Of a stretch of 64,000 nucleotides of DNA, positions 10,837 through 24,434 are shown piece after piece. Location: positions 186,001 to 250,000 of the forward strand of contig NZ_JAJOMB010000008.1 of the NCBI RefSeq assembly GCF_021129305.1, in the 5' to 3' direction. Position 1 is the stretch's first letter. Each line of letters opens with the position of its first letter. The DNA comes from Kineosporia babensis (GTDB lineage Bacteria; Actinomycetota; Actinomycetes; Actinomycetales; Kineosporiaceae). The notes beneath the pieces are model-generated. The model was not told the DNA's origin. It did no database searches and worked only from the letters and a program-made list of their open reading frames with translations. Made by a program: the position numbers and the translations under genes.

Positions 10837-10886
10837 AACTGAGGACGTCGGTGGGCACCTGGCGCCCACCGACGTCCTCAGTTTTT
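10837..10886 (-). terminator. Terminator for the GH26-like gene
   Basis: A perfect 20-bp stem with a 7-nt loop. Its base reads AACTGAGGACG on the plus strand. The T-run at 10882-10886 is on the plus strand and an A-rich base flanks the other side; it abuts the stop codon of the minus-strand gene, so it can serve both directions. It belongs to the shared-base terminator family. Confidence 0.75.
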
Positions 10887-12720
10887 ACTCACCGAAGAGC
10901 TTCTGGAACTCCTTGCCGGCCTTGGGCATGCTGTCCAGCCGGTGGTCACCCTTGTCGCCCACGTCGACGTCGAAGTAGATCTGGTAACCGACGTTGTTGC
11001 GCGGGTCGTCGATGAACTTGTGCATCTGCTCGATGAAGTACGGGTTGTCGCCCCCGCCGTGACCATCACCGACGCTGCGGTCCCACAGCCCCCACTCGGG
11101 CAGGGACAGCGGCTTCTTCTTGGACTGCGCGAAGTTCGACCAGAAGGACAGGCCGTAGGTGGCGTCCATGACGGTGGCCCAGGCCTGCTCCTGGTGCGCC
11201 ACCCGGCAGGCGGCCTTGCAGCCGCTCGGGTAGGGGTAGCTGTTCTCCGCCCAGGAGATGTCGTAGACGTCCACCCCGATGTAGTCCACGTACTTGTTGC
11301 CGGGGTAGTACAGCGTGGAGTCGTACGTCTCGCCGCCGTTGTTGACGTTCCAGTCGAACTTCAGGTTCTCGGCACCGGGCACCGCGCGCATGGTGGTGAC
11401 CACGTTGCGCCAGTACTTGATGAAGTCCTCCCGGTCCGAGGCCTTCGGGTGCCAGGGCCAGTTGACGTTGAACTCCCAGCCCAGGCGCAGGATCGCATCA
11501 CCCTGGCCGTAGGCGACCAGGTTCTTGGCCAGACGCTCGAAGTGCCGGTCGTAGTCGCCGTCGGCGCCCGCGGCCAGCGTGGCCGTGCTGTCCCGGGTGG
11601 GCAGCATGGCCACCGCGAAGACCATCTGGTAGTCGGTGTTCTGCCAGGTGTTCAGCATGTACGTGGGCGCCGCGATCTGTTCCCAGTTGGTGCGCTGGGA
11701 GTAGTCCATGGCGTAGGTGGGCTGACGGCCCAGCCAGCTGCCGAACGAGTTCACCGACGAGGGTGAGGTGCCCTTGTACACGCCCAGGCCCACCTTGCCG
11801 GCCGCGCCGGAGGTGGCCGGCTTCTCGGTCTCCTCGGCCTTGGGCTCGGCCGCCGGGGTGGTGGCGCCCGCGGCCGGGGTGACCGGAGCGGTCTCGTCCT
11901 TACCCCCGCCGACCAGTGCGTACGCAATGCCGCCGACGACCAGGAGGACCACCATCACGGCAGCGATCAACGGCAGACGCGGTTTGCGGCGTTTGGGCTG
12001 CCGGAACGACTGGGGCTGCTGGCGCGGGGGTGGACCGGTGCGGCTGCCGCCGAGGCTCGGGAAGCTGGCCCCGTTCCCGGGAACCCGCTTTCCGTCGCCA
12101 GAGGCCCAGCCGAGATCGGGGGCCTCGGAATCCATATCGAAGAAACTCGGCCGACGGCCCTGGATGTTGAGGCTTTTTGCGTCCTCCCGCTCGTCGCGGG
12201 ACCGGTCCGGGCGCTGGTCGTACTCGTCTTCCGGCTCATTGCGGCCAGGAGCGACGATCGCCTTGATCTTTCCGGAGGCGGTGGTCAGCGGAGCGATCGC
12301 GCGGAACCGGGTGCGGGGCCCCTCCTGCTGCTCGCCCTCGGGGCGCCGGTTCTCGTCCTCCCGGCGGGGGCGGCGGCCGGCGAAACCGCGGGCCGGGCGC
12401 TCGGGGAACTCGTCCTGAGCCTGCCGGTCGAGGCGGTTCTCCAGGGCGTACTCGTCAGGGGAACCACGCTGCGCCGAGCGCGGTTCGCCGTACCCCTGCT
12501 CATAGTTCGTTTCGTAGCCCGGCTGATACCTGGAGTCGTCACCGGTTTCGAGGCCGGGCCGGTGCCCCTGCTCGTAACCGTCGTCGTACCGAGAAATTTC
12601 GTACTGGTGGTCCTGGGCGGCGGCGCGCCGGCCGTCCCGGTCGTAGGGCGGGCGTGCGGGCGATTCGTCTGCCGGATCCTGGCCGTACGGGTGCGACGGT
12701 CTGACAGGGTATTCAGGCAT
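10885..12720 (-). CDS. Membrane-anchored GH26-like glycoside hydrolase with disordered N-terminal arm
   Basis: 611 residues from the ATG at 12720; a longer frame exists to 12780. Residues 1 to ~245 are charged, Arg/Asp/Gln/Tyr-rich and predicted cytoplasmic and disordered (RYDDGYEQG, YQPGYETNYEQGYGE). One membrane helix follows (LIAAVMVVLLVVGGIAYALV, about 247-270), then an Ala/Pro/Thr linker and an external catalytic domain. Likely acid/base Glu is in ILRLGWEFN (~415) and nucleophile Glu in LSLPEWGLW (~541), the clan GH-A pattern seen in beta-mannanases of GH26. It may trim, cleave or release the nascent polysaccharide outside the membrane. A closely related short paralogue lies directly upstream on the same strand. 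Confidence 0.8.
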   Translation of the reverse strand: MPEYPVRPSHPYGQDPADESPARPPYDRDGRRAAAQDHQYEISRYDDGYEQGHRPGLETGDDSRYQPGYETNYEQGYGEPRSAQRGSPDEYALENRLDRQAQDEFPERPARGFAGRRPRREDENRRPEGEQQEGPRTRFRAIAPLTTASGKIKAIVAPGRNEPEDEYDQRPDRSRDEREDAKSLNIQGRRPSFFDMDSEAPDLGWASGDGKRVPGNGASFPSLGGSRTGPPPRQQPQSFRQPKRRKPRLPLIAAVMVVLLVVGGIAYALVGGGKDETAPVTPAAGATTPAAEPKAEETEKPATSGAAGKVGLGVYKGTSPSSVNSFGSWLGRQPTYAMDYSQRTNWEQIAAPTYMLNTWQNTDYQMVFAVAMLPTRDSTATLAAGADGDYDRHFERLAKNLVAYGQGDAILRLGWEFNVNWPWHPKASDREDFIKYWRNVVTTMRAVPGAENLKFDWNVNNGGETYDSTLYYPGNKYVDYIGVDVYDISWAENSYPYPSGCKAACRVAHQEQAWATVMDATYGLSFWSNFAQSKKKPLSLPEWGLWDRSVGDGHGGGDNPYFIEQMHKFIDDPRNNVGYQIYFDVDVGDKGDHRLDSMPKAGKEFQKLFGE

Positions 12721-12897
12721 GACCTGGCACCGACTCCCGGCCCGATTCGGCACCATTTGACGGGCCGCCGGAGCGGTCACCAGGCGCGCAGGAGTAAAGG
12801 AGGGTCACGCCCAGAGAGTGTAATCGGTTCTCTGTGCGTCCGCTTCGCCCTTTGCGTCCCTACTGAAAACAACACAGCGGGTGAGCAGGCGACTCCT

Positions 12898-14188: not shown

Positions 14189-15865
14189 TCAGCGTCGGCG
14201 ACCGCCACCGCGGCCACCGCTGGAGCCACCCGAGCGGGTGACGTCGTTCCAGGGCAGATCCGCGTCTTCCGGACGCCCGCCGCCGTAGTTGCCGCCGCCC
14301 TGCGGGGCACCGTAGCCACGGTCGTCCCCGCCCAGGGCCGGGAAACCACCGGAGTCCTGACCGCTGTTGATGATCGGCAGCCCGCGCGGCGAGGTGTCGT
14401 ACATCCGGTTCGGCTCGGCGCTCATCGCGGCCCGCTGCCGGCGACGGCTGTTGGTCGTGTTGGGCCGGCGGATGTGGTTGACCAGCAGGCCCGCCACCGG
14501 GATGCCGGCCAGCCGGCAGCGCCGCTGGAGCTCCTCGAGGTCGGCCGGGGTGGTCGCCTCGTCGAGCACCACGACCGCGGCGTCGACCTGACCGGCCAGC
14601 ACGAACGAGGCCGAGGAGGCGGGCAGCGGCGGGGCGTCGATCAGCACCAGGTCGGTGTCGTCCGGGAGCTGGTCGAGGATGGCCTGCACGTCGGGCACCG
14701 GGTGCCCCTGGACCGGCTGGAGCACCTGCAGCCGGATGATCCCGAACTGGGCCCGCGAGGCGGCCTTGCGCTCCACCGCGTGGCCCAGGTCGATCCGGCC
14801 CTGGGCCAGGTCGTGCAGCGGAACCCGGAGCACGCCGTGGTCGGCCTCGGACTGCGGGCGCACCGTGTCCTCGATGTTGAGCAGGAACACCCGGCGACCG
14901 TGGTCGGCGGCGGCCGCGGCCAGGTTCAGCGCGGTCAGGCTGGAGCCGGCGCCGTCGTGCGGGGCGGTGATCAGGAAGACCCCGGGGGCGGTGCCACGGA
15001 TGTAGTCCAGACCGACCGCGGCCATCCGGTAGGCGTCACCGGGCTCGGAGTAGGCGGCGGCGATCGCGTCGTCGGCACCGATCCGGCCCCGGTCGGGGAC
15101 CTCGCTGAGGACCGGGGCGCCGAAGATCGCGCTGGCCTCGTTCGGGCCGACCTTACGCCGGGAGAAGGACTGCGTGTACAGAGCGTAACCAGTACCGGCG
15201 ATCAGGCCGATCAGCGCCAGGATCAGCGCGTTGCGCAGCGGCTGCGGTGAGGAGGCCGACTCGGGTACGTCGGCGAGCTGCACGTTGTTCACGCCGTTGC
15301 CGTAGACCGCGGCCGCGGCCTCGACCGCGTTGCGCTGGAGGACCGAGGTGCCGGTGGTGTCGTCGACCTGCTTGACCTGGGCGGCGACCTGGGCGGTGCG
15401 GACCTTCTGGTAGGCCGCGACCACCCCGTCGACCGTGGTCTTGGCGAGCGCCGCGGAGGAGGCGGTGGCCTCGACCGTGATCACCGAGGCGTCCTCGGAC
15501 GAGGTGACCGCGATCTCCTTGTACAGCTCGCGCGTGGTCACGCCGGGCAGCGGGGTGTCGTCGATCGCCGTCTGCAGCACCTCGTTGGTGGTGAGCAGGA
15601 CGGTCTGGTTGGCGATGTACCGGGCGACATCGTTCTGCGGCTGGTCGACCAGGGGCTGGAAATCGCCCTGCGCGCTGATGAAGATCTTGGACTCGGCGGT
15701 GTACTTCGACGACTGCACCGTGCTCAGCCCGACGCCCAGCAGAGCCGCGACCACGACGCAGGCCAGCACCACCCAGCGTTCCCGCACGATGGCGTTCACC
15801 AGGCTGGGCGCCTCTTCCGCGGCCGAACTGCCATCGGCCTGGCGCGCCGCCAGAATGTCCTGCAC
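14189..15865 (-). CDS. Wzz-type chain-length determinant fused to CpsD-like ATPase lacking the Walker A lysine
   Basis: 558 residues from a GTG with AGGAGG upstream. An N-terminal Wzz domain spans two membrane segments (VVLACVVVAALLGVGL and ALILALIGLIAGTGYALY). A cytoplasmic BY-kinase-like ATPase domain follows. Its P-loop reads ITAPHDGAGSSLTAL near residue 303: the GKS/GKT lysine is absent. The Walker A' Asp cluster is replaced by LLNIED, while a Walker B-like LVLIDAPPLP is kept. The tail is Gly/Arg-rich with a few Tyr (MYDTSP, GYGAPQGGGNYGGG, GGRGGGRRR). Normal relatives control chain length by ATP-dependent tyrosine autophosphorylation; this copy is probably a scaffold or regulated by other means. 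Confidence 0.85.
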   Translation of the reverse strand: MQDILAARQADGSSAAEEAPSLVNAIVRERWVVLACVVVAALLGVGLSTVQSSKYTAESKIFISAQGDFQPLVDQPQNDVARYIANQTVLLTTNEVLQTAIDDTPLPGVTTRELYKEIAVTSSEDASVITVEATASSAALAKTTVDGVVAAYQKVRTAQVAAQVKQVDDTTGTSVLQRNAVEAAAAVYGNGVNNVQLADVPESASSPQPLRNALILALIGLIAGTGYALYTQSFSRRKVGPNEASAIFGAPVLSEVPDRGRIGADDAIAAAYSEPGDAYRMAAVGLDYIRGTAPGVFLITAPHDGAGSSLTALNLAAAAADHGRRVFLLNIEDTVRPQSEADHGVLRVPLHDLAQGRIDLGHAVERKAASRAQFGIIRLQVLQPVQGHPVPDVQAILDQLPDDTDLVLIDAPPLPASSASFVLAGQVDAAVVVLDEATTPADLEELQRRCRLAGIPVAGLLVNHIRRPNTTNSRRRQRAAMSAEPNRMYDTSPRGLPIINSGQDSGGFPALGGDDRGYGAPQGGGNYGGGRPEDADLPWNDVTRSGGSSGGRGGGRRR

Positions 15866-16156: not shown

Positions 16157-17089
16157 GTGGAGTCAAGCGCCCAGGACGGCGCCGTACCTGCTTACGAGCT
16201 GATCATGGTCAGCTACAACAGCCGGTCACAGATCGAGGGCCTGCTCGCCGGGCTGCCCGCCGACATCCCGCTGGCCATCATCGACAACGCCCGGGGGGCC
16301 GACGGCCTGCGGGAGCTGATCAGCGGCCGCCCCAACGCCCGGTACCAGGAAGGTCCCGGCCAGGGCTTCGCCACCGCAGCCAACATCGGTGCCCGCAGCA
16401 GCGCCTACGACTATGTGATTTTTGTCAATCCGGACTGCCGCCCGACGGTCACCGGTCTCGACGCTCTGGTCTCGATGCTGGCGGCCGAGCCGAACATCGC
16501 CTCGGCGGCGGCCACCACGGTCTCCGGCGACGGAACGGTGGAGATCGGCACCGGCGGCTGGGAGCCCACCCTGCGCCGCTCGATCGTCCATGCGGTCGGC
16601 CTGCACAAGGTCGCCCCGCAGGCCGGCCTGTTCGCCCGGCCCCGGCCCTACCTGCCGATCAAGGTGGACTGGACCACCGGTGCCTGCATGGCCGTGCGGG
16701 TGAGCACGTTCAAGGATCTGGGCGGGTTCGACGAGCAGTTCTTCGTCTACAACGAGGACGTGGCGTTCGGCCGGGCGGTGCGCGAGTACGGCATGACCCA
16801 GGCGCTGCGCACCGACGTGCTGGTGCAGCACGCGGCCGGTAACTCGGGCGCGCCCTCCAAGGAGATGCTGCGCCTGCGGGGGGCCTCGATGGCCCGCTAC
16901 GTGGCCCAGCACAACGGCCTGGAGACCGCGCGCGGCATCCGCCTGGCGCTGACCTTCGGCTACGGCGTGCGAGCGCTGGCCTCGCTGGCCAAGGGCAACC
17001 GGGGCCGGGCCCAGGAGCACTGGAGCTACGTCCTCGGGATCACCAGCGGGCGGGCCAGCGTGGCCGGCCGGACGGTGACCAGGGCGTGA
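16157..17089 (+). CDS. Glycosyltransferase family 2
   Basis: 310 residues from the GTG at 16157, with TCACAGGAGGAA upstream; a longer frame starting at 16058 lacks a ribosome site. The GT-A fold is recognisable from IMVSYNSRSQIEGLL, the FVNPDC motif in place of DxD near residue 95, TGACMAVRV, and FDEQFFVYNEDVAFG with the acidic ED pair. It resembles rhamnosyl- and related transferases. It probably adds one residue of the polysaccharide repeat on the lipid carrier. Its stop overlaps the GTG of the following polymerase-like gene, so the two are translationally coupled. Confidence 0.87.
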   Translation: MESSAQDGAVPAYELIMVSYNSRSQIEGLLAGLPADIPLAIIDNARGADGLRELISGRPNARYQEGPGQGFATAANIGARSSAYDYVIFVNPDCRPTVTGLDALVSMLAAEPNIASAAATTVSGDGTVEIGTGGWEPTLRRSIVHAVGLHKVAPQAGLFARPRPYLPIKVDWTTGACMAVRVSTFKDLGGFDEQFFVYNEDVAFGRAVREYGMTQALRTDVLVQHAAGNSGAPSKEMLRLRGASMARYVAQHNGLETARGIRLALTFGYGVRALASLAKGNRGRAQEHWSYVLGITSGRASVAGRTVTRA

Positions 17090-18585
17090 GCAACACCCCC
17101 CGATCCGGCTCGACCCGACTGCCCGGCGGTACGCCGCCGGGCGGCTCGGCCGGGCCTGGTACCGGCCAGCAGCCGTACGACAGCGCCCGGCTGGTCAAGC
17201 AGGTACGCAACCGCTGGCGCCGGGCCAAGACCAGCCCGCAGCCCAGCCTGGACGCCCTCGCCGCCTACGACGAGCGCTCCGAGCGGCTGCGCCTGGTCGA
17301 CGCCCTGCCCAACCGCCAGGTGAGCGACGCCGACCGCAAGTACATGCTCCGGCTGATCAAGATCACCCTGCTGCTGTGCGTGGTGTTCCAGCGGTTCGCG
17401 CTGCCGCTGGGCGGTTTCCCGATCTCCGTGCCGCTGGTCGCGATGTACGTGTTCCTGGTGCTGGCCCGGCTGCGTGGCGGGGTCCGCTACAACCGGGTGC
17501 GCAGCGAGCTGTTCATCGCCTCGGCCGGGCTGGTCATGCTGGCCACGTTCTTCGCCGGTCTCACCCCGGGATCGTCGGTCTCGGTGAACTCGGTCCTGCT
17601 CCTGCTGATCATCTACATCCCCTGGGTGTTCTGCATCAGCTCGCAGTTCCGCGACCTGTTCGTCCCGGTGGCCCGGTTCTACACCCAGATCATGCTGGTC
17701 GCCTCGGTGGTCGGGATCTTCCAGCTGGCCTCGCAGTACGCCGGCGTCTGGGTCTACCAGGACTTCATCCTGAACGTGGTCCCGGAGAACTTCCTGCTCC
17801 AGAACTACAACGTGTCGTACCAGCTGGCCTGGAACGACCCGACCACGAAGGCCAACGCCTTCGTCTTCCTGGAGCCCTCGTTCCTGTGCCAGTTCCTGGC
17901 CGTGGCCCTGGTGGTCGCGCTGCTGATCCGGGCGCCCGCCTGGCAGCCGGCCCTGCTGGGCATGGGTATGGCCGCCACGCTGTCCGGTACCGGCATCATC
18001 CTGCTGGTGCTGTGCGTGGCCCTGATGGTGGTCGTGGCCCCGAACCGGATCCGCCCGGCGTACGTGCTGGCGGGGGTGGTCGGGCTGGCGATCGTCTTCG
18101 CCACCCCGGCGGCCGACATCCTGCTGGACCGAAGGAACGAGACCTCCCAGGAGGGCTCCTCGGGTTACATCCGGTTCGTCCAGCCGTACACCGAGGTGGC
18201 GGACGGGCTGCGGGAAGAGGCCACCCGGCTGTTCGTCGGGGCCGGGCCGGGTTCGGCCGACCGGTTGCTGACCTCGTTCCGCTCAGGTGGTGACGCGGTG
18301 GTCTACACCATCGCGCCCAAGCTCGCCTTCGAGTACGGCCTGATCGCGATGGTGGTGTTCGTCGCCTTCCTGGTGGTGGCCGTGTACCGCGGTCCGCCGA
18401 TCCCGGTGCTGCCCACCGGCATCCTGTTCATGATCTTCTTCCTGTCCGGAAGTCTGCTGCAGCCGCACACTCTGGCGCTGGCCTGGCTGCTGACCAGTCT
18501 CTGGGGCCCACCGGTAACGGTGGGGGTGTCGGACGCGCTGGCCGCGATGGTCCGCAGGAACAAGGACGCCGGGGCGCAGGCCTAG
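17086..18585 (+). CDS. O-antigen polymerase/ligase-like membrane protein (Wzy-type)
   Basis: 499 residues from a GTG overlapping the previous stop. A polar N-terminal ~85 residues (Gly/Pro/Arg-rich) precedes about ten or more hydrophobic segments, such as ITLLLCVVFQRFALPLGGF, FIASAGLVMLATFFAGL and LIAMVVFVAFLVVAVY. A large loop in the C-terminal half holds RRNETSQEGSSGYIRF and VGAGPGSADRLL, reminiscent of the periplasmic loop of Wzy/WaaL proteins. It is the best candidate polymerase for the lipid-linked repeat units flipped by the neighbouring transporter. Family assignment rests on topology and context more than on sequence motifs. Confidence 0.75.
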   Translation: MSNTPRSGSTRLPGGTPPGGSAGPGTGQQPYDSARLVKQVRNRWRRAKTSPQPSLDALAAYDERSERLRLVDALPNRQVSDADRKYMLRLIKITLLLCVVFQRFALPLGGFPISVPLVAMYVFLVLARLRGGVRYNRVRSELFIASAGLVMLATFFAGLTPGSSVSVNSVLLLLIIYIPWVFCISSQFRDLFVPVARFYTQIMLVASVVGIFQLASQYAGVWVYQDFILNVVPENFLLQNYNVSYQLAWNDPTTKANAFVFLEPSFLCQFLAVALVVALLIRAPAWQPALLGMGMAATLSGTGIILLVLCVALMVVVAPNRIRPAYVLAGVVGLAIVFATPAADILLDRRNETSQEGSSGYIRFVQPYTEVADGLREEATRLFVGAGPGSADRLLTSFRSGGDAVVYTIAPKLAFEYGLIAMVVFVAFLVVAVYRGPPIPVLPTGILFMIFFLSGSLLQPHTLALAWLLTSLWGPPVTVGVSDALAAMVRRNKDAGAQA

Positions 18586-18776: not shown

Positions 18777-21728
18777 TCAGCGGTTGCGGCGCCCGGCCTC
18801 GGGGAACGGCCACGGGTCTTCGCCCTGGTCTTCGGCCGACTGGCCACGCCCCGGTTCCCGGCTGCGACCCTGTTCACGGCCTTGCTCGCGGCTCTGTCCG
18901 CGACCGGAACGCCCGTCCCCGTAAGGGTTCTGCTGGTCATAGCGGTTCGGCCCGCCGGCCCGGCCGGACTCACGCCCCCGACCCTCATAGCCACGGCCGT
19001 CATTACCGCGACCGTCGTGGCCACGGCCTTCGTAAGCGGCCGCGTCATATCCCGGATCGTCGTAGCCAGGTTCGCCGTACTCCCGGCCGCCGGCTCCTCG
19101 GTCCGGGTAACCGCCGCCGCGCTGACCACCAGCACCGCGAGACTGCCCCCGTTCCGGTCGCGCCTCGTAGCCCTGGACCGGTGTGCCGTAGGCGTTCTGG
19201 CCTTCGCCCGGAGTCGCATACCCACCCCGGCCACGCCCACGCTCGTCGTAGTCCTGGGGCGCAGGGCCACGGCCATTGGCCGGCGTCGCGTACCCGCCGC
19301 GGCCACCGGATTCGTACCCAGCGCGCCCATCAGCAGGGGCCTCGTACCCCCCGCGACCGCCGGCACTTTCGCGCCCGCTGCGGCCCCGACCGCTCAGGCC
19401 GTCACGTTCCTGGCTCCGGGAACCCTGCTCGCTCCAGTCCGCCTCGCGACCACCGCTCGGCCGGCCACCCGCGTCGTAACCACCGCGCCCAGCAGCCTGG
19501 CCACCCGTGTCGTAACCACCGCGCCCGGCAGCCTGGCCACCGGTGTCATGGCCGCCCCGGCCCTGGCCGTCGTAACCACCACGACCACCGGCCGAACCAC
19601 CGCGCGCAGGCCCACCAGCGCCATAACCGTCCGGACCCGGCTGAGCCTGGTCGGCATAACCATCACGGCCACGGGCATCACCACGGCCGGAACCCGGCCG
19701 CCTGGGAGCCTCACCGTGAGCGCTGTAATCGCCCTGGATCTCTACTCCGCGAACTTCGCCACGTGAACCCGAGCCACCACGAGCCTGCCCACGACCTGGC
19801 TCATCCCAGTCCCGCGCACCGGCGTTGCCCCGGTCCGACCGTCGGCCGTCATCGGGCCCACCCTGCGCGGACTCCCACGGCGCCGGGAACTGACCCTGCG
19901 AAGAGGGTGGCCTACCGCCACGGTCCTGCCGAACCGCAACGGTGGGCTCATGGGCGTCGTAAGCGCCCTCCGACCCGCGGCCAGAGGGGCCGAAGCCCTG
20001 CCCGTCCTGCCGCACGGCAACCGTAGGGCCGGTCGGGTCGTACCAGCCTTCGGCCTGCGAGCCGGCCGGACTCTCGTACCCGTCCCGGTCCCGCGGATCA
20101 CGACCACGCGGATCACGGCCCTGCAGATCACGGCCCTGCAGATCACGGCCCTGCGGATCACGGCCCGAACGACCGCCGGACGAGTGCCGGTCCCGCTCGT
20201 CCCAGCCCCACGGTTCCTCGGCCTGCCGGCCGGCCAGGCGCTGCTCCGGCTCGTCCAGAGCCCAGCGCTCCTGCTCGTCCTCACTCCAGAAACCCTGGGC
20301 ACCATGACGTTCGCGCTCGTCAAAGCGCTCGTCAAAGCGTTCGTCGTAACGGTCGTCGTAAAGCTCGTCCCGGGCCCGGCCCGCGTTGCCCTGGGCCCGC
20401 AGCGCCTCCGCCGCCTCTTCCTCGATCCACGGGCGAGGCTGCTTGTCGGCCTTCAGGAAGATGATCCAGCTGGCCACGAAACCGGCGATCTGCGCGGTGG
20501 CCATGCCCCAGGCCGCCCCCGGACCGCTCCACAGCGCCCCGCCGAGCGAACCCAGACCCAGCATCAGCGGCGCCTGCACGAAGGTGACCCGCAGCATCTG
20601 GTCGGCCCGGCGCAGCGCCTTCAGACCCAGGCTGGCGCCCAGCACGAAGCCCACGCAGACCACGATGATGCCCATCGGGAGCATCACCTCGCGGGCGGTC
20701 GCCCAGCTGTCGCCCAGCAGCTCGCCACCGATAGAGGTCGGCACCAGCAGCAGGATCAGCACCCAGGTCCCGGCGATCCCGCCGATCCCCGCGCTGAGCA
20801 TCAGGGCGCCCTTGAGCAACGACTGACCGGCCATCGCGGTGCGTGAGAGCATCGGCAGGCCGAACGAGGAGATCCCGGAGAAGAGCAGGTTCAGCGGGCC
20901 CAGCAGGGTCTGCGCGGCCCGGATACCACCGATCGCCACCTTGCCGACGATGCCGCTCACCACGTACGAGACCAGGGTGGTGGCGCCCTGGTTGAACGAG
21001 AAGTCGGCGGCCATCTTCATGTTGATGTCGCGGGTCTCGCGGAACCAGGCCATCGCCTCGAACGGGTCGGGCGCCACCCGGGTCTGCAGGATGCCGATCA
21101 GGGCGGCGACCAGTGCCCCCGCACCCCAGGCCAGGGTGATCAGGAAGACCGACGGCTCCGGCTGGACCAGCAGCACCGCCAGCAGACCGAACTGGATCGC
21201 GGTGCGGACCGCGTCGTTGATCGTGGCGGTGCGCGGGCGGCCGGCCGCGAAGAAGGCGCTGCGCCAGGTCTCCTGCAGCATCAGGCCGGGCATCGCCAGC
21301 CCCAGGCCGAGAATCGCCAGCGCACTGACGTGGTCGCCGAGCACGAAGTACATCACCGCGGCCGCCGCCGCACAGATCAGGCCGGTGACCACGCCGAAGC
21401 TGATCGCTGAGCCGGCCGCCTGGCGCTGGGCCCGGCGGCGGGTGTGCCGGTCGGCGTCGGTGAACCGGATGACGTACGGGTCGCCGATCCCGGCCCGGCC
21501 CAGGCCGATCAGGAAGGTGAAGGTGACCAGCATCAGGCTGAAGGACCCGAAGTCCTCCTTGGTGACCTGCCGGGCCACCACGATCGAGAGGGCGAAGTTG
21601 GCCAGGCTGGAGAGCGCCTGGTCGGCGAACGTCCAGATGATCCGGCTCTTGTTGGAGATCTGCGGGGTGTCGTCCTCGGAGTCCAGGTCGGCCGGGTCCC
21701 GGTGCACGTGCCTGCCGGTCAGCGCCAC
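18777..21728 (-). CDS. Polysaccharide flippase (MVF/Wzx-like) with giant RGG/Tyr-rich tail
   Basis: 983 residues from a GTG at 21728 with AGGTGAG upstream. Residues ~25-425 form a multi-helix transporter domain (SRIIWTFADQALSSLANF at its start) of the Wzx/MATE-like exporter type, about the full length of such proteins. From about residue 430 to the end is a ~550-residue low-complexity, probably disordered cytoplasmic tail. It holds DERFDER repeats, a GRDLQGRD/GRDPRGRD block, two copies of PTVAVRQD, at least six RGGY units (GRGGYDTGGQAAG repeated), and a Gln/Arg-rich end (SREQGREQGRSREPG). The frame is unbroken and keeps high GC3. It should flip the lipid-linked repeat unit; the tail may recruit or cluster partners. 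Only the transporter part has a known family role. Confidence 0.85.
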   Translation of the reverse strand: MALTGRHVHRDPADLDSEDDTPQISNKSRIIWTFADQALSSLANFALSIVVARQVTKEDFGSFSLMLVTFTFLIGLGRAGIGDPYVIRFTDADRHTRRRAQRQAAGSAISFGVVTGLICAAAAAVMYFVLGDHVSALAILGLGLAMPGLMLQETWRSAFFAAGRPRTATINDAVRTAIQFGLLAVLLVQPEPSVFLITLAWGAGALVAALIGILQTRVAPDPFEAMAWFRETRDINMKMAADFSFNQGATTLVSYVVSGIVGKVAIGGIRAAQTLLGPLNLLFSGISSFGLPMLSRTAMAGQSLLKGALMLSAGIGGIAGTWVLILLLVPTSIGGELLGDSWATAREVMLPMGIIVVCVGFVLGASLGLKALRRADQMLRVTFVQAPLMLGLGSLGGALWSGPGAAWGMATAQIAGFVASWIIFLKADKQPRPWIEEEAAEALRAQGNAGRARDELYDDRYDERFDERFDERERHGAQGFWSEDEQERWALDEPEQRLAGRQAEEPWGWDERDRHSSGGRSGRDPQGRDLQGRDLQGRDPRGRDPRDRDGYESPAGSQAEGWYDPTGPTVAVRQDGQGFGPSGRGSEGAYDAHEPTVAVRQDRGGRPPSSQGQFPAPWESAQGGPDDGRRSDRGNAGARDWDEPGRGQARGGSGSRGEVRGVEIQGDYSAHGEAPRRPGSGRGDARGRDGYADQAQPGPDGYGAGGPARGGSAGGRGGYDGQGRGGHDTGGQAAGRGGYDTGGQAAGRGGYDAGGRPSGGREADWSEQGSRSQERDGLSGRGRSGRESAGGRGGYEAPADGRAGYESGGRGGYATPANGRGPAPQDYDERGRGRGGYATPGEGQNAYGTPVQGYEARPERGQSRGAGGQRGGGYPDRGAGGREYGEPGYDDPGYDAAAYEGRGHDGRGNDGRGYEGRGRESGRAGGPNRYDQQNPYGDGRSGRGQSREQGREQGRSREPGRGQSAEDQGEDPWPFPEAGRRNR
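19473..19553 (-). repeat. 36-bp coding repeat in the flippase tail
   Basis: Two near-identical 36-bp units and part of a third encode RGGYDTGGQAAG-type dodecapeptides. The unit start recurs at 19475 and 19511. The repeat stays in frame, consistent with slippage or recombination under coding constraint. Confidence 0.8.
20095..20165 (-). repeat. 18-bp coding repeat in the flippase tail
   Basis: About four tandem units of GATCACGGCCCTGCAGAT type encode GRDLQG/GRDPRG hexapeptides. A second block with 12-bp period (CTCGTCAAAGCG type, 20316-20350) encodes FDER units just upstream in the protein. Confidence 0.8.
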
Positions 21729-22220: not shown

Positions 22221-23168
22221 ATGCCGTCTGTGAGCGTGGTGATCGCGTGCTACAACGCCGCCGACACTCTCGGCATCCAGCTGGAGGCACTGGCCCGGCA
22301 GACCTACCGGGGTGACTGGGACGTCATCATCAGTGACAACGGCTCCACCGACCACAGCCGCCTGGTCGCCCAGCGGTACGAGAGCCGGCTGCCGAACCTG
22401 CAGATCGTCGACTCCTCCGGCACCGCCGGGGCCGGGCACGCGCGCAACATTGCCGCCCAGCACTCCGAAGCCGACTTCCTGGCCTTCTGCGACGCCGACG
22501 ACGAGGTGGCCGACGACTGGCTGGAGACCATGACGGTGGCGCTGGAGCGCAACCCGTTCGTGGCCGGCCGCTTCGAGTCGCGCAAGCTGAACTCCGAACG
22601 GGTGCTGCGCTCGCGCCCGCTGCAGCAGAGCACCGGTCTGCAGGAGTCGCCGTTCGGCCCGGGTCTGCCGCACGCCGGCGCCGGCAACATGGGCGTCCAG
22701 CGCGAGATCTTCCTCACCGCGGGCGGCTTCGACCAGGCCGTGGGCACCCTGGAGGACACCGACCTGTGCTGGCGGATCCAGCTGGCCGGCACCCCGCTGA
22801 TCTTCGCCCCCGACGCGGTGGTGCACGTGCGGCTGCGGACCTCGTTCAGCAAGATGTGGCGCCAGGGCTGGTCCTACGGTCACGCCGCGGCGTTGCTGGA
22901 GCGGCGCTACGGCAACAAGCCGATCGCCAGCGTCACCGCGGTCACCACCTCCCTGGCCGTGATCAAGGCGGCCGAGGAGGCCGAGATCCAGCCTGCTCAG
23001 GGCAAGGTCGGCTCGGCGCTGAAGCTGATGCGGGAGAACCCCTCCCCCGGGGCGATGCTGTGGGCGGTCGGCTGGCACGTCGGGCACCGGGCGATGAAGG
23101 GCGACGAACTGCCCGCGCTGCCGATGCTCACCTCCGGCCAGGAGAACCGGCTGAGCCAGGCCGGCTGA
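22221..23168 (+). CDS. Glycosyltransferase family 2
   Basis: 315 residues with GGAGAGG upstream of the ATG. GT-A features: SVVIACYNAADTLGIQLEAL, ISDNGSTDHS, FCDADDEVADDW (DxD-type metal site), AGNMGVQREIF and GTLEDTDLCWRIQ with the acidic pair of the acceptor site. The C-terminal ~60 residues are basic and may lie along the membrane. It is likely cytoplasmic, acting on lipid-linked intermediates. The gene stands alone between a divergent promoter region and a strong terminator, so it may be transcribed separately from the other glycosyltransferases. Confidence 0.87.
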   Translation: MPSVSVVIACYNAADTLGIQLEALARQTYRGDWDVIISDNGSTDHSRLVAQRYESRLPNLQIVDSSGTAGAGHARNIAAQHSEADFLAFCDADDEVADDWLETMTVALERNPFVAGRFESRKLNSERVLRSRPLQQSTGLQESPFGPGLPHAGAGNMGVQREIFLTAGGFDQAVGTLEDTDLCWRIQLAGTPLIFAPDAVVHVRLRTSFSKMWRQGWSYGHAAALLERRYGNKPIASVTAVTTSLAVIKAAEEAEIQPAQGKVGSALKLMRENPSPGAMLWAVGWHVGHRAMKGDELPALPMLTSGQENRLSQAG

Positions 23169-23255: not shown

Positions 23256-24434
23256 TCAGTGCCCCAGGAAGTCCAGCATCGGCTGCAGCGTGACGTCCCA
23301 GGAGTAGTGCTTGCGCACCCAGTCCTGGGCCAGCGCCGAGGTGTCGCGCGGCGAGCGCAGCCGGGCCACCACCGTGTCGGCGAACAGCTGCGGGTCGATC
23401 TTCAGCCGGTCCACCAGCTCGGAGGGGATGTCCTCCAGGCCGGAGGCGCCCACGTCGGTCGAGACGATGTCGATGCCGGCGCCCAGGTATTCCAGGATCT
23501 TGATCCGTGAGCCGCCACCGGACAGCAGCGGCACGATGCCCAGCACGTGCGCGTCCAGCACGGCCGACATCACCGGCGGGTTGGCCAGCAGGGTGATGCC
23601 GTCGGGAGCACAGGCCTCGGTCACCGCCTTGCCGGGGTTACGGCCGGCGACGGTCACCGTGGCCTCGGGGATCTGGGCCCGGATCAGCGGCCAGACCTTC
23701 TCCGAGAACCACACCACCCCGTCGATGTTCGGCTCCCAGTCCAGGGCGCCGGAGAAGACCATCGAGTTGGCCGGGCGGTTGCCCGAGGGGGTGACCTGAC
23801 CGGCGAAGATGCCGTTGCGGCAGACGATGGTTCCGCGCTTGGGGTTCAGTGCCCGGGCGTCGGCTTCGGTGCAGACCATCACCGGGTAACGGTCGGCCAC
23901 GTGCGCCTCGAGGTGGCGCAGCAGCCGCACCTCGGCGTTCATCGCGACCTTGTCCTTGGCCGAGGTGGCCAGCCGGGCCCGCTGGTTCATCAGGTCGGAC
24001 TCGATGTTGTGCATGCTCACCACGATCTGGTCGGCCCCGGCCGCCACCTCGTCGGCCAGCCCGGCCAGCGCGGTGTGGTCGATGACGGCCACGTCGTAGC
24101 GGCCCTCGGCGCCGTTCCACAGGTTGTCGAGCAGCTTCGAGCCGCCGGTGCGCAGACCGCTCAGCGACTTGTAGCGCGCCGCGGTGCGCAGCTGGCGCAG
24201 CAGGTCGCCCCCGGACGAGCGGCCCGGGTGCTCCTCCAGCGGCCGGCCCGGCCCCTTGGCGACGACCCCGTCCGGGCTCACCACGGTGGTGTCGTACCTG
24301 GTGGACAGGGTCTCCAGGATGGCCAGGGTGCGCAGGGTGCCGCCCGAGGTCGGAGTCGCGGAGAACTCCTTGGTCACCAGCAGGCAGCGAGGTACTCCGG
24401 CGGCGCCGGGCGTGGGACTGTTCGTCGTGGGCAC
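23256..24434 (-). CDS. Glycosyltransferase, GT4-like
   Basis: 392 residues from GTG at 24434. The N-terminal domain (CLLVTKEFSATPTSGGTLRT) and the C-terminal GT-B domain are clear: VFSGALDWEPNIDGVVWF, GRNPGKAV, GGGSRIKILEYLGAGIDIVS and TDVGASGLED. The overall layout resembles the first GT4 enzyme of the window (865-2298), with the same 'NxDGxxWF' pattern, so the two may be distant paralogues. It is a retaining glycosyltransferase of unknown sugar specificity and probably adds a residue of the exopolysaccharide repeat unit. Confidence 0.87.
   Translation of the reverse strand: MPTTNSPTPGAAGVPRCLLVTKEFSATPTSGGTLRTLAILETLSTRYDTTVVSPDGVVAKGPGRPLEEHPGRSSGGDLLRQLRTAARYKSLSGLRTGGSKLLDNLWNGAEGRYDVAVIDHTALAGLADEVAAGADQIVVSMHNIESDLMNQRARLATSAKDKVAMNAEVRLLRHLEAHVADRYPVMVCTEADARALNPKRGTIVCRNGIFAGQVTPSGNRPANSMVFSGALDWEPNIDGVVWFSEKVWPLIRAQIPEATVTVAGRNPGKAVTEACAPDGITLLANPPVMSAVLDAHVLGIVPLLSGGGSRIKILEYLGAGIDIVSTDVGASGLEDIPSELVDRLKIDPQLFADTVVARLRSPRDTSALAQDWVRKHYSWDVTLQPMLDFLGH

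Follow-up and report, generated by a model that had tools for sequence, protein, structure and literature searches.

The 64,000-nucleotide stretch of Kineosporia babensis analyzed here (contig NZ_JAJOMB010000008.1, positions 186,001 to 250,000; hereafter the window) encodes a flippase of the Wzx type that continues, in the same frame, into a C-terminal tail longer than the transporter itself. Gene and tail are found at a syntenic locus in all six Kineosporia genomes compared, the window's own included. What persists in the tail is a set of short motifs together with its disordered character; the RGG-rich composition that makes the window tail conspicuous does not persist. We tentatively interpret the tail as a phospho-regulated docking arm on the flippase of an exopolysaccharide cluster, with threonine sites that may be targets of a Ser/Thr protein kinase (STPK) and be read by a forkhead-associated (FHA) domain. 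This interpretation is drawn from sequence patterns, and we hold it somewhat short of probable. A regulatory docking arm, its threonines serving as kinase/FHA sites and its low-complexity stretches as spacers, is nevertheless the most economical account of the tail, and it is more likely than a former of droplets in the manner of eukaryotic proteins.

The uninterrupted frame described in a first-pass annotation is confirmed: the open reading frame (ORF) starts with GTG on the minus strand and has no internal stop over 983 residues, 434 in the transporter body and 549 in the tail. Judged by this gene, K. rhizophila (85% identity) and K. mesophila (76%) are the nearest named relatives. The frame is real because gene and tail recur in the six genomes in the same gene order, because the WPFP(D/E) end is kept in five of them, and because the tandem-repeat periods are multiples of 3. 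That last property holds for each row reported in the three tails tested: 4/4 in the window tail (units of 36, 15, 24 and 12 nt), 18/18 in the orthologue L013 and 11/11 in the orthologue of genome G005 (L017), these rows overlapping and hence not being independent. Third-position GC (GC3) is 0.71 in the tail, below the body value of 0.96, and the opposite strand carries overlapping long ORFs; both could point to an antisense or out-of-frame open reading in GC-rich DNA. Against such an artefact, the frame and the C-terminal motif are alike in other species. We consider it ruled out, to within a negligible chance, by the in-frame repeat periods, by a motif kept beyond the variable region, and by the substitution pattern of a close pair of species described below. 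As a separate observation, the GC3 of the tail lies below that of the body in all six orthologues, with the largest gap in the two longest tails; in the window gene the difference perhaps reflects young repeats.

The body matches Polysacc_synt (PF01943) at residues 30–297 with 30.3 bits, above the curated cut-off of 28.2; no NCBIfam match was found for the flippase. The AlphaFold2 (AF2) model of the whole chain, computed from a shallow alignment of 8 rows, has a mean predicted local distance difference test score (pLDDT) of 49 and a predicted TM-score (pTM) of 0.41. Body residues score mostly 65–85 and none reaches 90, so the count of about 12 transmembrane (TM) helices is of modest confidence. 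Both the model and Foldseek agree with the multidrug/oligosaccharidyl-lipid/polysaccharide (MOP) fold of 12–14 TM helices; Foldseek ranks WzxE first (9g9n_A, TMt 0.72, 13% identity), followed by MATE and MurJ chains. A Pfam scan of the flippase gave no MurJ match at E ≤ 0.1, and the three places in the genome that match PF03023 all lie outside the flippase locus. With TM borders placed by hand from the AF2 model, 23 Lys/Arg residues fall in even-numbered loops and 3 in odd-numbered ones; therefore, both termini should be cytoplasmic, and the positive-inside rule predicts that the tail lies on that side. The protein probably moves lipid-linked sugar building blocks across the membrane, a substrate suggested by the glycosyltransferase (GT), Wzy-like and Wzz-like genes next to it.

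The tail is predicted to be disordered, with AF2 pLDDT below 50 across residues 465–983, in line with the first-pass annotation. The richness in Arg, Gly, Tyr and Gln first noticed there is borne out by count (G 24.2%, R 14.9%, D 9.1%, E 8.6%, Q 6.6%, Y 4.7%; K, C and M zero). There are 11 RGG, 26 Tyr and 82 Arg, and exactly 6 RGGY and two PTVAVRQD where at least six and two had been claimed. Of the two kinds of repeat reported, the dodecapeptide is recovered (2.4 copies of a 36-nt unit); the repeat finder gives no hexapeptide array, its array with the most copies having a unit of 5 residues. The window tail has no Pfam match at E ≤ 0.1, hence no pseudokinase domain was found in it, and the scan of the flippase at this threshold contains no RNA-binding domain.

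Comparison of the six orthologues separates what is constant in the tail from what is not. Their tails measure 549, 986, 170, 199, 362 and 367 residues; in the same order, RGG occurs 11, 6, 1, 0, 0 and 1 times and RGGY 6, 1, 0, 0, 0 and 0 times. These counts do not support RGG as an ancestral feature of the tail, and no conserved RGG clusters, as would mark a phase-separating protein of the RGG type, are found among the six. The comparison with eukaryotic RGG proteins thus turns out to be the weakest part of the first-pass annotation, because RGG richness is confined to the window species and partly K. rhizophila. The Tyr count ranges from 5 to 53. The middle part of the tail shifts between species, from RGGYDTGGQ to QPYPGG to AHNGQ repeats; in the G005 tail a 15-nt repeat of 6.5 copies encodes AHNGQ. 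The constant traits are low hydrophobicity, a near absence of Lys, Cys and Met, the short motifs, and a net charge of −15 to −25 irrespective of length.

These numbers bear on an idea that goes back to the first-pass annotation, namely that the tail is a condensate scaffold: its Arg, Tyr and Gly would act as stickers that concentrate the machinery for polysaccharide synthesis in foci, at sporangia or at the tips of hyphae. The 26 Tyr, 82 Arg and 11 RGG of the window tail are what such a scaffold would call for, and hydrophobic-poor, disorder-like segments also occur elsewhere in the cluster, namely in the N-terminus of a GH26-type protein, in the GGY-rich tail of a Wzz/CpsD-like protein and in the N-terminus of the polymerase. 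The ABC transporter Rv1747, whose FHA domains are joined by a disordered linker, forms clusters (PMC9312465). But Tyr, Arg and RGG drop to 5, 17 and 1 in K. mesophila and to 6, 18 and 0 in genome G004, where the gene and its motifs are retained, and all six tails carry a net negative charge. We therefore regard a condensate scaffold as unlikely.

Motif 1, near the membrane, reads FWxxxEQ(E/D)RW in five of the six orthologues and ends in EEPW in four; its segment EEQERWAREEPEQ is also present in a short-tailed paralogue (L018). Five of the six also have a pair of T-V-x-(V/F) sites and a terminal WPFP, the exception in each case being G005, the most diverged. The paired T-V-x-(V/F) sites mostly carry an acidic residue at −2 and an Arg at +4; their threonines are T569 and T596 in the window tail, and the K. 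mesophila counterparts lie in EETVQF and EPTVPF. The pattern [DE].T[QV].Φ (Φ, hydrophobic) occurs in five of the six tails with 8 hits, against a shuffle mean of 0.05 and maximum of 1, and a looser acidic-x-T-x-x-Φ site is in all six. At the level of six-mers, the window and K. rhizophila tails have 39 in common, whereas none of 300 shuffles gave more than 5. With the other four tails, the window tail has 1 to 7 in common for shuffle maxima of 1 to 4, the values for G004 (1; maximum 2) and G005 (2; maximum 4) not exceeding their maxima. The ratio of nonsynonymous to synonymous substitution (dN/dS) in the close pair K. mesophila/G004 is 0.29 for the tail and 0.07 for the body; three more distant pairs give 0.35–0.69, values biased downward because the sequences were aligned on amino acids.

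It could be asked whether this is mostly neutral repeat growth, by slippage, of a tolerated C-terminus, so that nothing in the tail would matter except the motif next to the membrane and, perhaps, the one at the C-terminus. Tail lengths that run from 170 to 986 residues within one genus, the numerous tandem repeats, the low identity of the middle region and the absence of a tail from the own-genome paralogue all fit that view. However, the tail is kept in six of six species, the distal WPFP lies beyond the variable stretch in five of them, and the tail dN/dS of the close pair stands against it as well. Neutral growth as the main account is rather improbable in our estimate.

Beyond the genus, the flippase was followed through a class sample of 296 genomes, own included, at a match threshold of E ≤ 1e-45. 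This gave 62 matches in 37 genomes (own included), 46 of them in one other actinobacterial family (f25). With tail length counted from the last aligned residue, C-terminal tails measure 15–198 residues at 29 loci outside the genus, up to 228 in 20 longer stretches from f25 (partly overlapping the 29 loci), 17–222 in a further 20 stretches outside the genus, and 14–68 in nine homologues from other genera of the window's family. Therefore, tails of K. mesophila length occur elsewhere, and those of 360–986 residues are found only in Kineosporia; the window tail exceeds all those measured outside the genus (14–228).

Many f25 flippases instead have long, disordered-looking arms at the N-terminus, with GC3 mostly 0.7–0.95 near the membrane. 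All 46 f25 matches were scored, in sets of 20 (mostly chosen for long frames), 8 and 18. Each of the first 20 arms (17 genomes) has T-(Q/V)-x-Φ within the 290 residues that precede the first helix, and 17 of them have the strict form, acidic-x-T-(Q/V)-x-Φ-(x)-R, for example as HERTQIIRG, PEGTQVFVR or PESTQVVSR; strict hits number 21, against at most 1 in 500 shuffles. Over the whole set, 31 of the 46 are long-armed, the open frame ahead of the first helix exceeding 200 residues in each and measuring about 211 at its shortest. All 31 have T-Q-x-Φ, and 25 have the strict form. The other 15, with 32 to 140 residues and including one frame that begins near a contig end and is possibly cut, have T-Q-x-Φ in none, T-V-x-Φ in one and the strict form in none. 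The site therefore goes with the long arm. The strict motif is absent from 46 other window proteins (17,673 residues), in which the Arg-less form is found 5 times, and from 18 loci of other groups (1 of f34, 6 of f26, 2 of f20 and 9 from other genera of the window's family). Long N-terminal frames in f26 were considered as fused domains and ruled out by their GC3 (0.50–0.52 in three frames, 0.51–0.57 at six loci, these being 6 of the 9 f26 matches in the sample). Many long f25 arms also have a FTQTIDLSALRRRLE- or TTELAALRRRLG-type segment.

The link from these sites to kinases and FHA domains is one of resemblance. FHA domains read the residue at +3. The genome has 9 FHA matches; an FhaA-like gene (identified by reading the sequence), a second FHA gene adjoining it and PASTA repeats 7.7 kb further lie on the same contig. 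GarA of the same genome carries VETTISFG ahead of its FHA domain, and in Saccharopolyspora, GarA is phosphorylated at an ETTS motif (PMC12321487). FhaA binds a phosphorylated site of CwlM with the pattern P-T-x-x-F (PMC6180346), which PTVPF in the K. mesophila tail fits, and the STPKs of Mycobacterium tuberculosis favor acidic residues at −2 to −5 (PMC6030727, citing Prisic 2010). The available portions of PMC4389566 and PMC5845002 held nothing usable on the phosphosite motif. In the genome's own MurJ, an N-terminal arm whose length is taken from the open frame has four acidic-x-T-x-x-Φ sites, against a shuffle mean of 0.24 and maximum of 2. That frame (L085, C1:778787) has about 330 disorder-like residues before the transporter, including EPTRPM, EPTRRV and DITRPI. 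Encoded at C1:770301, 8 kb from it, is an FHA protein that likewise contains a long stretch of disorder-like sequence.

In the docking-arm interpretation, the gene product would flip lipid-linked sugars for an exopolysaccharide cluster conserved in Kineosporia, and the tail would be a disordered cytoplasmic arm whose working parts are the membrane-near aromatic/acidic segment, the pair of T-V-x-(V/F) sites and the terminal WPFP. The low-complexity RGG/GYD stretches would serve as rapidly evolving spacers, lending the arm reach and slight stickiness. Most likely, a PASTA-type Ser/Thr kinase would phosphorylate the threonine sites, and an FHA protein of the FhaA type would then bind them, as the motif resemblance suggests. 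Such binding may tune the flippase or recruit it to the growth zone.

Several points weigh against this interpretation. The presence of FHA and STPK genes says little, because such genes are common in actinobacteria. The motif patterns were devised from sequences already viewed. The G005 tail has no TVxV site and offers only DQTFFM; among the 10 TVx(V/F) copies in the other five species, the acidic residue at −2 is missing from 2 (the first copy of both the window tail and the K. rhizophila tail) and the Arg from 2. The f25 counts are not independent events, because they come from one family and related genera; the last 18 f25 loci, scored together with the 2 of f20, confirmed the association of motif and long arm and added no independent lineage. 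Flipping as such seemingly has no need of the tail, because the own-genome paralogue is tailless. Finally, DNA encoding TVAVRQD occurs 4 times across the six Kineosporia genomes, each time in the flippase gene (reversed-pattern control, 0), and DNA encoding [DE]PTVAVR also 4 times, again each in that gene (reversed control, 2). Chance does not account for this distribution. PTVAVRQD is thus rejected as a genome-wide signaling word; being confined to the flippase gene, it is not a general one in the genus.

A wider proposition is that at least two actinobacterial lineages separately acquired long disordered cytoplasmic arms with T-(Q/V)-x-Φ, at the C-terminus in Kineosporia and at the N-terminus in f25, the site mostly being preceded by an acidic residue and followed by Arg. 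This would put exopolysaccharide export under PASTA-kinase/FHA control, as in peptidoglycan flipping, the site being kept and the arm freely remodeled. We consider this a doubtful extension at present. Among the titles and starts of abstracts listed by the literature searches, none describes a disordered arm of this kind on a Wzx flippase.

The features of the locus are collected in Table 1. In all six genomes the gene order is Wzz/CpsD-like, GT2, Wzy-like, flippase, GT2, GT4, except that G005 has two more genes, for a GH26 protein and a further flippase, between the flippase and the second GT2; the two G005 flippases (L017, 8464–10857 and 13507–15051) are 2.7 kb apart inside the cluster. The own-genome paralogue is 69% identical over the body and 448 residues long; a K. 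rhizophila paralogue has a 47-residue tail with part of motif 1. The surroundings of the paralogues (16–17 kb each) gave no match to other window genes.

Table 1. Features of the flippase gene and its cluster, in window coordinates.
Feature	Position	Strand	Basis
Whole flippase, 983 aa, Wzx-type (MOP/PST superfamily), C-terminal tail predicted disordered	18777..21728	-	ORF, Pfam, AF2, Foldseek
Transporter body, aa 1-434, about 12 TM helices, both termini predicted cytoplasmic	20427..21728	-	PF01943, AF2 helices, Foldseek, K/R count
Predicted disordered tail, aa 435-983 (549 aa)	18780..20426	-	pLDDT <50 for 465-983; ILVMFC 4.0%
Motif 1, GFWSEDEQERWALDEPEQRLAGRQAEEPW, aa 479-507	20208..20294	-	Ortholog comparison
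Motif 2a, PTVAVRQD, aa 568-575, without acidic residue at -2	20004..20027	-	
Motif 2b, PTVAVRQD, aa 595-602, E directly before	19923..19946	-	
Fast-evolving low-complexity RGG/GYD region, borders approximate	18840..19820	-	Ortholog comparison
15-nt tandem repeat, GRDPR/GRDLQ-type pentapeptides	20093..20166	-	Repeat finder
36-nt tandem unit (dodecapeptide), 2.4 copies	19463..19547	-	Repeat finder
C-terminal motif DPWPFPE, aa 971-977	18798..18818	-	WPFP in 5/6 orthologues
GH26-type protein, apparently one TM, disordered N-terminal region	10885..12780	-	Pfam, composition
Wzz/CpsD-like chain-length protein, 59-aa Gly-rich tail, Walker A GAGSS	14189..15865	-	Pfam; GAGSS in 6/6 genomes
Wzy/O-antigen-ligase-like polymerase	17086..18585	+	Wzy_C match under its cut-off; synteny
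GT2 glycosyltransferase of conserved cluster	22221..23168	+	
GT4-type glycosyltransferase of conserved cluster	23256..24434	-	

The Wzz/CpsD-like gene, 2.9 kb from the flippase and syntenic in all six genomes, suggests a further function for the tail. Phosphotyrosine control of capsule export by Wzc/CpsD would be the model, with the Tyr-rich tail, 26 Tyr in the window, as the substrate arm of the cluster's bacterial tyrosine kinase (BY-kinase)-like protein. However, the number of tail Tyr is not conserved, and in all six genomes GAGSS replaces GxGKS/T in that protein, the Walker-B-like LIDAPP being kept. Because the Walker-A Lys is missing, the protein is probably not an ATP-using kinase and is a probable pseudo-BY-kinase. 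This weakens the substrate-arm idea to the point that we think it very unlikely. The tail of the Wzz/CpsD-like protein contains a conserved YDTSPRGLP segment. In K. mesophila, the GH26-type protein has GWQDQEGRQ repeats in the disorder-like N-terminal region before its apparent TM. SFPSLGGSR near the TM of the GH26-type protein resembles GFPALGGDDR in the Wzz/CpsD-like tail; the pattern FP(S/A/T)(L/I)G from these two places was set aside, the flippase tail being without it.

If the docking-arm interpretation is correct, the export of capsule or sporangium matrix in actinomycetes would be tied to Ser/Thr kinase signaling through a disordered arm of a flippase, and the tail would be a clear case in which conspicuous low-complexity sequence is turnover and function resides in small motifs. 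With a tailless paralogue in the own genome and six tail lengths that occur naturally, the interpretation lends itself to direct testing.

Among known systems, WzxE is similar in body fold and in its context of Wzy-, Wzz- and GT-like genes; unlike the window protein, the matched WzxE chains have 409–418 residues and no long tail. The window tail resembles eukaryotic RGG/Tyr low-complexity RNA-binding proteins in RGG and GY content, and differs from them in that no RNA-binding domain was found by Pfam and RGG is not conserved in the genus. The imp cluster of the zoospore-forming Actinoplanes missouriensis has a part in producing the matrix of the sporangium, and the same paper names Kineosporia as a sporangium former (PMC12691653). 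That cluster is comparable in having the flippase-like ImpC, glycosyltransferases and an adjacent glycosidase, the likeness being one of gene content; the glycosidase is GH5 there and GH26 here, and the available portion of the paper describes no disordered tail. That the Kineosporia cluster may make sporangium matrix is, by this analogy, a lead only. Rv1747 of M. tuberculosis likewise combines a membrane transporter with disordered sequence on the cytoplasmic side, phosphorylation of which favors condensates (PMC9312465); its fold is different, and it bears FHA domains itself, whereas the window arm would be an FHA ligand. In mycobacterial MurJ/MviN, Thr phosphorylation is proposed to recruit FhaA, with a link to PknB (PMC6180346, PMC11898655). 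The window protein differs from it in being of the Wzx/PST type, in having no pseudokinase found, in the low complexity of its extension, and in that phosphorylation and FHA binding are here inferred; the two have in common a MOP-fold flippase for lipid-linked sugars with a long cytoplasmic C-terminal extension.

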